Assembly: GCA_944326465.1 (NCBI GenBank)
Contig: CALVEB010000016.1
Span: forward strand, 1-44,997
Direction: 5' to 3'
Source: Candidatus Gastranaerophilales bacterium
Lineage (GTDB): Bacteria > Cyanobacteriota > Vampirovibrionia > Gastranaerophilales > Gastranaerophilaceae
Length of the DNA stretch: 44,997 nt
Under the pieces are notes generated by a model. The model worked only from the letters and a program-made list of their open reading frames with translations, made no database searches and was not told the origin of the DNA. Position 1 is the first letter of the stretch. Each line of letters opens with the position of its first letter. This document shows positions 10,967 to 13,416 of this stretch, piece after piece. Position numbers and translations under genes: made by a program.

Positions 10967-11640
10967 GACATCTCCTTTTTATTAACCCGCTGTATTTAGT
11001 ATACACCATGTTTAAATTTTTTGCATTATGTTAATATCAGTTAATATCTTTGGTGTGTGTCCACCCTCTCCGAGGGGCAGACGAAGGTGGACACAGGCAG
11101 ACACAGTCTGCTCCTATACATTGGACACCCGCTAAGTCCTATCAGTAACTGCTACATTTACCTCTCCAAGGGGGAGGTCGAAATTCTGTGAGCATAGCGA
11201 ACTAGAATTTCGGGAGGGGGTCAAATGTGCATGTCCCACCAACGCCTTTCCGTCATCCCGCAACGGGCATGTGTGCGTCAAGCGGGCATTGTCACCTTGC
11301 GGGATCTCAAGCTAAAAGGCACTCTATGTAGGTCGGATTTACTAATCCGACAGTAAATCAAGCGGCGCACCAAACGACGATCCATTCCTTATTGGTGGGC
11401 ACGCTATCGCTTTGCCCCACCCTACGGGTCTACGTGATTATGGAAGAAAACGATACAAAAACCCTAATCAATTACAATTTGAATGGGCGTTTGAATCGTA
11501 AAATTATCATGGACAGTAGTGGAATTTATTTCAGGATCTGTCCACCGTAACAATTTACGGGATTGTAAAAACAACTCCCTTAAACTCGTAACATGTGCCA
11601 GACCCTGAAACAAGTTCAGGGTGACAGTAAATAAAAATAA

Positions 11641-11666
11641 GGCAACGTGGAAAATCCAGCATTGCC
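11641..11666. repeat. GGCAACGTGG repeat, copy 1
   Basis: 26 nt with self-complementary ends (GGCAA...TTGCC). Copy 2 lies at 11725-11750 in the same orientation; they share GGCAACGTGG, a central AATC and CATTGCC and differ in the middle. Confidence 0.7.
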
Positions 11667-11724
11667 TGATTCTATTAACGAACTTATTCCCCTATTTCCT
11701 TATTCCCTTATTCCCCTAAAAAGA

Positions 11725-11750
11725 GGCAACGTGGGGAATCTCACATTGCC
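11725..11750. repeat. GGCAACGTGG repeat, copy 2
   Basis: Second 26-nt copy, 58 bases after the first, with the same inverted ends. Two copies with a non-unique spacer made of TTATTCCC microrepeats do not make a CRISPR array. Confidence 0.7.
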
Positions 11751-11766
11751 CTATTTTGAAATCCTC

Positions 11767-11800
11767 TTAATCACTTAGTCACTCAATCACTTAATCACTT
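11767..11800. repeat. Octamer repeat (CACTTAAT type), non-coding copy
   Basis: About four degenerate 8-bp units (CACTTAGT, CACTCAAT, CACTTAAT and partial flanks). The same octamers occur in opposite orientation inside the prepilin gene at 12884-12922, so the two arrays form an inverted pair flanking most of that gene. Confidence 0.7.
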
Positions 11801-11830
11801 CGAACTAAGAGGCCAAGCCTCTTAGTTCGA
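11800..11830. repeat. Perfect 14-bp inverted repeat over the prepilin stop codon
   Basis: Arms TCGAACTAAGAGGC (11800-11813) and GCCTCTTAGTTCGA (11817-11830) with a 3-nt centre. It contains the last two sense codons and the TAA of the prepilin gene. No T-run follows on the minus strand, so it is not an ordinary terminator. Hairpins or cruciforms just after the variable region are needed for target recognition in the Bordetella phage diversity-generating retroelement; the resemblance is in position and symmetry only. Confidence 0.7.
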
Positions 11831-13066
11831 CACACATATAGCGCGGCTGTAGCTGTTGTACTTGAGGTTCCAGTAACCGTCACCGCCGCCCGTGTAGGAA
11901 GTGTAGAAGACCCGGCCGTACGCGCCATTCGCACCGTTCTCCTCACTGGACCAGTAGTTGTAGCCATCATATTTGATTGGAGGGTTCTCTTGGTATGCTT
12001 CCTTTACTTTAAGACCTGTTTTGTCTTCGTTCGCTCCTATTGTCACTGCGCTTCCATCGCTTGAGTTTACATATAATTCACTCGCTAATTGGGCTAATTG
12101 CGCTCTTGTTGGTAATTCCATGCCTTTCTGGTCGCATGCTTTTTTAGCTCCTGCCCAATAATTTGTTGAGCAATAGTCGTTGCTATCTCCTGTAGGGTCG
12201 TATGCTTTATCTTCTTCTGTTCCGTCTGAACATGTATTTATTGCTGTATTAGCAGCAAATTCTGTTGACCAGCACATGTCTCCTATCGGGTTATCGCAAG
12301 TTGAAAAGGCTACGCCTGAAGATAATTCAATATCCTTTCCAACTCTATTAGGCCCCTTCTTACCGTTTACATCTACCATGTATGCCATGCAGGATACTTG
12401 TGAACCTTGATCCTCTATAGGATCTTCATAAGGGCATTCCGGCTGGTATGCCATAATTACTGTTGTTCCATCCACAACCACAAAGCTCATGGTATTTGTA
12501 TTAGTTTGCCATTCCTTTAATCCCATGCTGCTTGCAGAAGTGAGACCGTTTGTTTCGATTTCTTCCGGCGCATCATCTTTACCTGTTGTAACGATTTTAG
12601 GTGAATAGCATTTGTTAATGTCTGTGTTATCGCAGGTTTTGATTACTTTCATATAGTTTTTGAAAGTGTTCATGAAATCCTCTGTAGTATCATGCCCTGT
12701 CATTACACCGTCTACGTTCATGCGTCTTACTGTTTCAGTTAACTTCTTTTCCCACAGGTCTTTTGCCGTAGACCATGCTTTTTCATTGTGGTTTTGGATG
12801 AGCCCCGGAAGGGTTAACGCGGCAACGATGCCGATAACCGCTAACGTAATGAGAACCTCGGCTAACGTAAACGCGGCCGCTTTTGAAGTGATTAAGTGAC
12901 TAAGTGATTGAGTGATTAAGTGGTTACTGGAATTAGTGCCTGTGCCTTCGTGACGATTAACGTCTTTTTCAATTGGCTGGATTGCTTCGCGTTCGCTCGC
13001 AATTGTACATGTCAAGCAATTAGGTTCTGTTTTTACGTTTCTGTTTTTGGTATTCTTATTTTTCAT
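11822..13066 (-). CDS. Prepilin-like surface protein with long leader and lectin-like C-terminus
   Basis: 414 residues; AGGAG is well placed before the ATG. Residues 66-92 are a type IV prepilin/pseudopilin N-terminus (FTLAEVLITLAVIGIVAALT) with Glu5 of the mature pilin and Ala at the cleavage -1 position. The leader before it is 65 residues, far longer than usual, and partly encoded by octamer repeats (HLITQSLSHLITSK). The body holds paired cysteines and blocks shared with the paralogue at 30165-31187 (VDGTTVIMAY, VNGKKGPNRVGKDI, YWAGAKKAC). The last 45 residues (YNYWSSEENGANGAYGRVFY onward) resemble DUF1566/Fib_succ_major or C-type-lectin-like tails. Probably assembled by the type IV pilus or type II machinery and exposed outside. 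Divergent from an XRE regulator. Confidence 0.85.
   Translation of the reverse strand: MKNKNTKNRNVKTEPNCLTCTIASEREAIQPIEKDVNRHEGTGTNSSNHLITQSLSHLITSKAAAFTLAEVLITLAVIGIVAALTLPGLIQNHNEKAWSTAKDLWEKKLTETVRRMNVDGVMTGHDTTEDFMNTFKNYMKVIKTCDNTDINKCYSPKIVTTGKDDAPEEIETNGLTSASSMGLKEWQTNTNTMSFVVVDGTTVIMAYQPECPYEDPIEDQGSQVSCMAYMVDVNGKKGPNRVGKDIELSSGVAFSTCDNPIGDMCWSTEFAANTAINTCSDGTEEDKAYDPTGDSNDYCSTNYWAGAKKACDQKGMELPTRAQLAQLASELYVNSSDGSAVTIGANEDKTGLKVKEAYQENPPIKYDGYNYWSSEENGANGAYGRVFYTSYTGGGDGYWNLKYNSYSRAICVSN
11843..11965 (-). other. Variable-region-like GC3-rich tail of the prepilin gene
   Basis: In these 41 codons (from GGC-TAC-AAC-TAC to CGC) 35 end in G or C and none ends in A, while the codons before are AT-rich. 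AAC, TAC, AGC and GGC dominate, as in diversity-generating retroelement variable regions derived from AAC-rich templates. The segment ends 13 bases before a perfect hairpin. No template repeat or reverse transcriptase is in the window. A recent transfer of this domain would also explain the composition. Confidence 0.45.
12884..12922 (-). repeat. Octamer tandem repeat inside the prepilin leader
   Basis: On the coding strand about 4.5 degenerate units of 8 bp: CACTTAAT, CACTCAAT, CACTTAGT, CACTTAAT, CACTTC. It encodes NHLITQSLSHLITS directly before the prepilin motif. Gain or loss of one unit changes the frame, because 8 is not a multiple of 3. Inverted copy at 11767-11800. Confidence 0.75.
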
Positions 13067-13135: not shown

Positions 13136-13161
13136 CACTTATATTACATTTGTCAACCAGA

Positions 13162-13173
13162 TATAATTTAACA
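13162..13173 (+). promoter_or_regulatory. -10 box 6 nt from the XRE start codon (leaderless mRNA)
   Basis: TATAAT at 13162-13167, then TTAACA, then ATG at 13174. Transcription from this box would start at or next to the A of ATG, and no Shine-Dalgarno exists. TTTGTCAACC stands just upstream; the same pattern occurs at 31265-31287. Confidence 0.6.
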
Positions 13174-13416
13174 ATGGAAAAAAATTTTAAATATATACTG
13201 GGACGTAACATTAAAGCGGAAAGAATGCGTAAAGACATAACTCAGGAACGATTTGCCGAATTAATTAACATGAGTCTGAGTTATGTAAGTAAACTTGAAC
13301 AGGGGCTTATCTCGCCTACGGCAATAACTCTTTTTAAAATGGCTGATATTCTAAGTATTCCAATGGATGAATTTTTTAAAGGTATAGATGTTAAACAATT
13401 GAATACTTATGAGTGA
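13174..13416 (+). CDS. XRE-family regulator divergent from prepilin gene 1
   Basis: 80 residues from the ATG at 13174; an upstream in-frame start would overlap the promoter. Residues 8-64 form a Cro/C1 helix-turn-helix (YILGRNIKAERMRKDITQER, FAELINMSLSYVSKLEQGLI, ILSIPMDEFF), nearly the whole protein, so it is a minimal DNA-binding dimer without a sensor domain. It is a paralogue of the 72-aa regulator at 31288 (shared GRN/ARN-IKAER, LEQGL/LERGL, FKG/LKN ends) with the same genomic position next to a prepilin gene. It likely represses itself and/or the prepilin gene through the 13107-13135 repeat. Confidence 0.88.
   Translation: MEKNFKYILGRNIKAERMRKDITQERFAELINMSLSYVSKLEQGLISPTAITLFKMADILSIPMDEFFKGIDVKQLNTYE

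Follow-up and report, generated by a model that had tools for sequence, protein, structure and literature searches.

A probably trans-acting, dispersed diversity-generating retroelement with 33 variable repeats in a Gastranaerophilales genome

Introduction

In the diversity-generating retroelement (DGR) of Bordetella phage BPP-1, whose target is Mtd, the available excerpts of two reports describe adenine-specific differences between a template repeat (TR) and a variable repeat (VR), an Avd protein, a reverse transcriptase (RT) and, directly behind the VR, a hairpin that includes the target's stop codon (PMC3240598, PMC12875486). These same features recur in the system described here, which we approached from the end of a gene for a type IV prepilin-like protein in a window of 44,997 nucleotides, the whole of the stretch analyzed (contig CALVEB010000016.1, positions 1 to 44,997 of the forward strand, assembly GCA_944326465.1 of a Candidatus Gastranaerophilales bacterium). 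While BPP-1 carries one compact avd-TR-brt unit, RT, TR and targets are scattered over the source genome of the window (G000 in the following, a 2.07-Mb draft of 52 contigs that is 99.7% complete and has several contigs ending at VRs), and 33 VRs belong to its main template, TR1. Moreover, BPP-1 has a structured spacer 3′ of its TR, in contrast to the conserved leader 5′ of the TR and the terminator-like hairpin right after TR1 in G000. Contigs of G000 are labeled C9, C11, C12, C19, C22, C30, and C49 below, and individual loci carry the prefix L.

Multitarget, remote and trans-acting DGRs are already known, as far as the accessible portions of the respective papers go (PMC4891356, PMC7517822, PMC10907252, PMC6642488). 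The TvpA-type DGR of Treponema denticola resembles ours in having one TR and remote, paralogous lectin-fold targets; unlike G000, it is described with 2 to 7 targets, 62% of them with lipoprotein signals, and with a core module of RT, TR and one target (PMC4891356). The DGRs of Thiohalocapsa PB-PSB1 likewise occupy several loci, some of them without an RT, and diversification in trans is argued for in the part of the study that we could consult, but their 15 targets in nine loci are tied to defense NTPases and conflict systems (PMC10907252). Cyanobacterial DGRs share remote C-type-lectin (CLec) targets found by TR homology, whereas the 121 diversified genes from 21 genomes encode variable proteins mostly predicted to be cytosolic, and the excerpts of that study make no mention of prepilins (PMC7517822). 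Finally, the sections available from Yan et al. (2019) report single TRs whose VR copies number from a dozen into the hundreds, so that the number of VRs alone is not new; their example has 21 merged VRs in one open reading frame (ORF), while in G000 every VR ends a separate reading frame (PMC6642488). In the open-access collection searched, outside of which most subscription papers lie, we found no paper joining a DGR with Gastranaerophilales, Melainabacteria or a prepilin. What is new here is the number of separate target genes, an RT apart from TR and Avd, two TR units with one RT found, and targets of the prepilin-lectin type. We consider it about 90% probable that the window segment is a VR of a chromosomal DGR with dispersed parts, one RT on contig C9, 33 targets and a surface lectin repertoire as its product.

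Results

A BLAST search of G000 with positions 11822 to 11990 of the window yielded 33 strong copies, the query included, and a search with the template itself added one further copy (C9:12122). In one of these copies (C12:10073-10204, minus strand), which is not part of any target gene, almost every variable codon reads AAC or AAT. This is TR1, a stretch of 132 nucleotides with 52 A's, in which 15 of the 44 codons are AAC and 4 are AAT; it is located between genes, inside an 88-amino-acid reading frame without a prepilin motif. The window VR differs from TR1 at 22 of the 52 A's and at none of the 80 other sites (Fisher's exact test, p = 4e-11). Given a template copy elsewhere in the genome and all 22 differences on template A's, the resemblance of the window segment to a VR is, by this sequence comparison, more than chance. 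The sequence-only reading, which was made from the letters of the window before any search, had proposed exactly such a DGR target, with the retroelement itself outside the window, and both proposals are borne out.

The A specificity extends to the remaining copies. For the 31 of the 33 VRs that were scored (L052, whose end pattern failed, and the C9 copy were left out), 675 of 1,585 A sites differ from TR1, compared with 159 of 2,447 non-A sites, and 10 of the 31 show no non-A difference. Since 14 of these alignments contain gaps, we also give the counts for the 17 ungapped ones alone, which are 371 of 884 A sites versus 56 of 1,360 others. All three substitutions of A are seen, with 339 changes to G, 200 to T and 136 to C. 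AAC and AAT codons can thereby become NNC and NNT, respectively, and cannot turn into stops. Nothing that looked like a third template was seen among the matches listed for TR1 (41 rows, with the best 40 of 44 candidates scored) and TR2 (five rows; TR2 is described below), the remainder being coding copies and short, weak matches whose sequences were not inspected. The TR1 query was shifted by 1 nucleotide in the template searches of G000 and of the genus genomes.

Each of the 33 VRs of TR1 (32 distinct sequences) closes its own reading frame. A prepilin motif is present in 21 of these targets, two of which have an inserted stretch after the first copy, and in 11 of the other 12 the frame runs off the contig end. 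The gene bodies are conserved paralogues of one family, with a mean column identity of 79% over 39 sequences (alignment A1, which took 39 of 47 references; alignment A3 took 20). Downstream flanks were compared for 30 of the 33 loci, three having none, and only two pairs share at least 300 bp at 95% identity, in one of which (L042) the common stretch is nearly the whole available flank. The scarcity of shared flanks, together with the distinct VRs, points to separate loci rather than alleles of a few genes. We then compared ungapped VRs with at least 60 nucleotides of upstream sequence, taking the best 25 pairs by likeness. For the two target pairs with an approximately 95% identical upstream stretch (177 and 279 nucleotides), the VRs show 21 and 19 differences, respectively, at 49 A sites and none at the 74 others, which suggests that the gene body was copied and the VR rewritten. 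Two neighboring targets on C30 (L049, 2261-3280 and 5064-6083) have identical VRs; this may be a recent duplication that is not yet rewritten, or an assembly artifact.

A hairpin with a perfect 14-bp stem sits on the stop codon of the window gene, without a T-run, just as the sequence-only reading had described it. Stems of at least 10 bp occur at the stop codon of 30 of the 33 VRs, compared with 3 of the 117 other stops in the loci examined, and no stem above 9 bp arose in 680 shuffles. In the TR region, the best stem is only 7 bp. Of the 30 genomic occurrences of the motif AACTAAG...CTTAGTT, 29 are at VRs and one is at the end of contig C49. As read from the alignment, stem variants (TCGAAC, TCCAAC) mostly stay paired through changes on both arms, and the stem is partly broken in some loci (L027). 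The suggestion that retrohoming in BPP-1 needs such a structure holds in part, as a hairpin containing the target's stop codon is described as important for homing (PMC3240598) and, in the accessible text of a later report, as not strictly required (PMC12875486). On C49, the VR-type hairpin at the contig end (L054, 5262-5286) may belong to a further target gene that is cut off; the same contig carries a Drt2-like RT.

A PF00078 profile search of G000 returned two RTs. The one on C49 was set aside as the DGR enzyme, its best match being Drt2 (360 bits, E = 1.7e-107, under the cutoff of 390). The other, at C9:49540-50670 (minus strand), has an intact frame of 377 amino acids and is of DGR type. 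It contains LPIGNLTSQ, as do all 21 relatives compared, and YVDD, which is shared by 19 of the 21 and replaced by YMDD in the other two; a GxxxSQ motif marks DGR-type RTs. Among solved structures, the C9 RT matches 8ub7 best (E = 7e-40), which we take to be the BPP-1 DGR RT. No other DGR-type RT was found by the PF00078 search of this 99.7%-complete draft. Within the 3.7 kb examined around the C9 RT there is no avd or TR; a neighboring gene is presumably maf-like. On C12, TR1 is followed by a bAvd gene, avd1 (PF22296, 49.1 bits, cutoff 40), for which a sequence search of the PDB gave a best E value of 0.049. A second unit on C19 consists of a prepilin target, a bAvd gene (avd2; PF22296, 47.6 bits, cutoff 40) and a second template, TR2, with no RT in the listed stretch of the unit. 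TR2 has three VRs, on C19, C22, and C11. It differs from the C19 VR at 20 of 43 A sites and 4 of 92 others and from the C22 VR at 19 of 43 and 5 of 92, while the C11 VR is more diverged (17 of 45 A sites versus 19 of 94 others). A single cassette that unites RT, TR and one or more VRs, the usual though not required layout, is thus absent: TR1 and avd1 are on C12, the RT is on C9, and TR2, avd2 and one VR are on C19. The near-copy differing at A's and the DGR-type RT, which the sequence-only reading expected to find side by side, both exist in the genome, and only their adjacency fails. That a single template serves 33 VRs, that the RT lies away from it and that a second TR/Avd unit exists goes beyond what had been proposed.

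We also looked at related loci in other genomes. An avd1-like gene lies just upstream of the RT in 16 of 18 named RT relatives, and the remaining two have no more than 239 and 603 bases of contig ahead of the match. By eye, 12 of these 16 have an A-rich, template-like stretch between avd and RT, and in the other 4 avd abuts the RT or overlaps with it. TR1, TR2 and the TRs of 12 relatives are preceded by a leader that has a conserved core, with 11 invariant columns and a mean column identity of 31%. It reads GGGnGTGC..TTT..ATCnCGT in the 14 aligned loci, including L031 3686-3840 (minus strand) and L119 6555-6690 (plus strand). This alignment excludes L071 (the same sequence as L070, from two records), L076 (the same as L059), L077 and the four loci in which avd abuts the RT. 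An Rfam search with L031 and L119 gave no match to the leaders, only a tRNA elsewhere in L119 and a subthreshold whalefall-1 match. The leader may possibly be an undescribed RNA element of these DGRs. The stretch TATCTCGTCGGC is common to the leaders of TR1, L056 to L061 and L063, and it is with the RTs of these same loci that the C9 RT groups in the tree (support, 0.97; L076 and RT matches of at most 300 bits were left out of the RT and avd trees). The leader of TR2 and avd2, on the other hand, resemble the type found in genome G003. The simplest reading of these sequences is that TR1, avd1 and the C9 RT would be one broken-up cassette and that the second unit would have lost its own RT.

The search with TR1 at E ≤ 0.001 gave 34 matches in G000 (TR1 and TR2 included), 32 in G002 and 5 in G003 (its own template included), and none in three of the six genus genomes. 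In G002, the 31 TR1-like copies inspected are all coding ends, and the 32nd match is 32 nucleotides long, its sequence not having been inspected. Either large VR sets can outlive their machinery, or the machinery is missing from the G002 assembly. The same-genus genomes G002 and G005 are 97% complete and have many VR or VR-like gene ends, and no RT was found in them, so the machinery is lost or missing from the assemblies. More widely, 14 of 288 genomes of the family contain sequences that match the lectin tail (E ≤ 1e-15). With the best 15 candidates at most scored per genome, these amount to at least 15 matches in G000 and in G002, at least 14 in G005 and in G057, at least 6 in G206, and 1 or 2 in the others. 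By eye, the tails from G005, G057, and G206 share the series of NNC codons at corresponding sites and have different fixed residues, which makes other templates likely in these genomes (L168 and L170 share one tail in this listing, and the tail of L197 is not in the VR frame). Phage-borne targets were also considered; a scan of viral contigs with the window protein, which reaches close relatives only, gave one pattern match and no relative.

The C-type-lectin fold is the usual display scaffold of DGR targets (see also PMC7517822 and PMC4891356). The target of BPP-1 likewise has a lectin fold. In the AlphaFold2 model of the window target, residues 211 to 350 have pLDDT values of 83 to 95 (in ten-residue blocks), and the VR is located at the end of the predicted C-type-lectin fold. 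VIA-align aligns this domain (residues 193 to 352) with the C-terminal domain of Bdellovibrio Bd2740 (8oks; Z = 10.6, rmsd 2.0, 97 residues), with that of Legionella Lcl (8q4e; Z = 8.8, rmsd 6.2, 105 residues) and with many animal C-type lectins (Z ≤ 8.3). Of the two domain types first suggested for the tail, C-type lectin and DUF1566, the former agrees with the predicted fold; as to the latter, the window protein has no DUF1566 Pfam match at E ≤ 1, and the likeness to the DUF1566/Lcl family is one of fold alone. At the N terminus, a suspected prepilin anchor turned out to score above the cutoffs of PF07963, if barely (21.5 versus 21.2 bits), and TIGR02532 (18.6 versus 16.3 bits). Our recount of third positions in the 41 codons at 11843 to 11965 (26 C, 9 G, 6 T, and no A) reproduces the 35 G/C endings and the lack of A noticed earlier, and the 367 upstream codons of the gene end in 139 A, 89 T, 83 C, and 56 G. 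The features are collected in Table 1.

Table 1. Positions of the target gene and its parts in the window
Feature	Position	Strand	Basis
Target gene, coding for a type IV prepilin-like protein of 414 amino acids whose C-terminal domain is C-type-lectin-like	11822..13066	-	
Prepilin cleavage/N-methylation segment AAAFTLAEVLITLAVIGIVAALTLPGL	12801..12880	-	PF07963 and TIGR02532 above cutoffs
C-type-lectin-fold domain (predicted), model residues 193-352	11825..12304	-	AlphaFold2 model and VIA-align
VR, 132 nt, matching TR1 at C12:10073-10204 (-)	11834..11965	-	Differences at 22/52 template A's and 0/80 other sites
VR 3′ end with hardly any variation, CGCGCTATATGT; putative site of an IMH-like element	11834..11845	-	Copy alignment, per-codon counts
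Hairpin/cruciform on the stop codon, with a perfect stem of 14 bp and a loop of 3 nt	11800..11830		Arms 11817-11830 and 11800-11813

Discussion

With its parts scattered over several contigs, the system is a dispersed and probably trans-acting DGR with an unusually large target set. In the mechanism that we propose, an RNA composed of the conserved leader and TR1 would be transcribed from C12 and reverse-transcribed by the C9 RT together with the bAvd encoded beside TR1, the RT misincorporating opposite template A's. The mutated cDNA would then replace the homologous 3′ end of any of the 33 targets by way of the shared sequence, with homing aided by the conserved VR 3′ end and the hairpin on the stop codon, and the conversion of AAC and AAT to NNC and NNT would keep stops out of the products. 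These are likely prepilin-anchored proteins with a C-type-lectin fold that would make up a combinatorially variable set of binding proteins on the surface or pilus. Because of its lineage and because no other DGR-type RT was found in the draft, we infer that the C9 RT serves TR1 in trans, and perhaps TR2 as well. The RT would be active at present, and the targets would lie at the surface and bind ligands. Behind TR1 come a 7-bp hairpin and a T-run, which together resemble a terminator, so the leader-TR1 RNA may end right after TR1. In BPP-1, the spacer 3′ of the TR is described as priming cDNA synthesis via an adenine within it (PMC12875486, in the part available), and priming in this lineage may thus differ.

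Several observations weigh against this account. The RT and TR1 are not adjacent, the grouping of avd1 with the clade of L056 to L061 and L063 has a support of just 0.78, and neither RT nor avd was found in G002 despite its 31 TR1-like VRs. Non-A changes are frequent in some VRs, with as many as 15 in L046, and such VRs look old or inactive. A strong hairpin is missing from three VRs, and one target with an uncut frame (L026) shows no prepilin motif. As for the protein, residues 1 to 196 of the window target have pLDDT values below 50 in the AlphaFold2 model, and Foldseek gave no match for its lectin domain at E ≤ 0.001 (best E = 0.21).

Part of these points would suit a fossil system, in which the VRs were once diversified by an intact avd-TR-RT cassette whose parts have separated, leaving an inactive element and drifting VRs. 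The distance of the RT from TR and Avd, the VRs with many non-A differences and the situation in G002 are all in keeping with it, as are T. denticola isolates described as having targets without RT or TR (PMC4891356, in the portion available). We nevertheless think it unlikely, as the RT frame is intact with a catalytic YVDD, 10 of the 31 scored VRs are free of non-A changes, and paralogues that are about 95% identical upstream have different VRs with 0 of 74 non-A sites changed. It is less likely still, and in our view quite improbable, that the C9 RT has another function and that a second, unassembled DGR RT drives TR1: the draft does have 52 contigs, several ending at VRs, but the C9 RT belongs to an avd-linked RT family and the only other RVT_1 match is Drt2-like. 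An ordinary paralogous family shaped by positive selection and gene conversion, with no retroelement involved, could account for the conserved gene bodies. The hypervariable sites, however, coincide with the A's of one noncoding copy beside a bAvd gene, and selection on the protein would not spare all 80 non-A sites of the window VR; this noncoding TR1 and the A specificity rule such a family out for practical purposes.

Returning to the dispersed DGR, we advance a wider version of it only tentatively, and would sooner bet against it than for it. A single stand-alone RT might supply hypermutation to both template units and all 36 targets (33 of TR1 and 3 of TR2), which would encode combinatorial adhesins, with a conserved RNA part 5′ of the TR and priming perhaps different from that in BPP-1, and the VR-like expansions of different sequence in G005 and G057 might suggest a recurrent strategy of the family. 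If active, the system would mean that a gut bacterium with a 2-Mb genome devotes large shared machinery to randomizing its surface lectins. It would open to testing the activity in trans and the choice among more than 30 VRs, both from reads alone, as well as the role of the 5′ leader. The genome also illustrates what can be missed, namely, a template and 33 VRs with no RT beside them.

Other features of the window

Just upstream of the target gene, a divergent 88-amino-acid ORF (13150-13416, plus strand) looks by eye like an XRE-type regulator. Short interspersed repeats (GTGATTAAGTGATTGAGTGAC... and GGGAATAAGG..., window positions 11660-11800 and 12880-12930) are found downstream of many targets, and a stretch similar to them codes for part of the N terminus ahead of the prepilin motif (HLITQSLSHLITS). 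A match to the whalefall-1 RNA at 11158-11221 (L055, 3159-3222, plus strand) scores 26.2 bits, below the gathering threshold of 37, and is probably due to chance.
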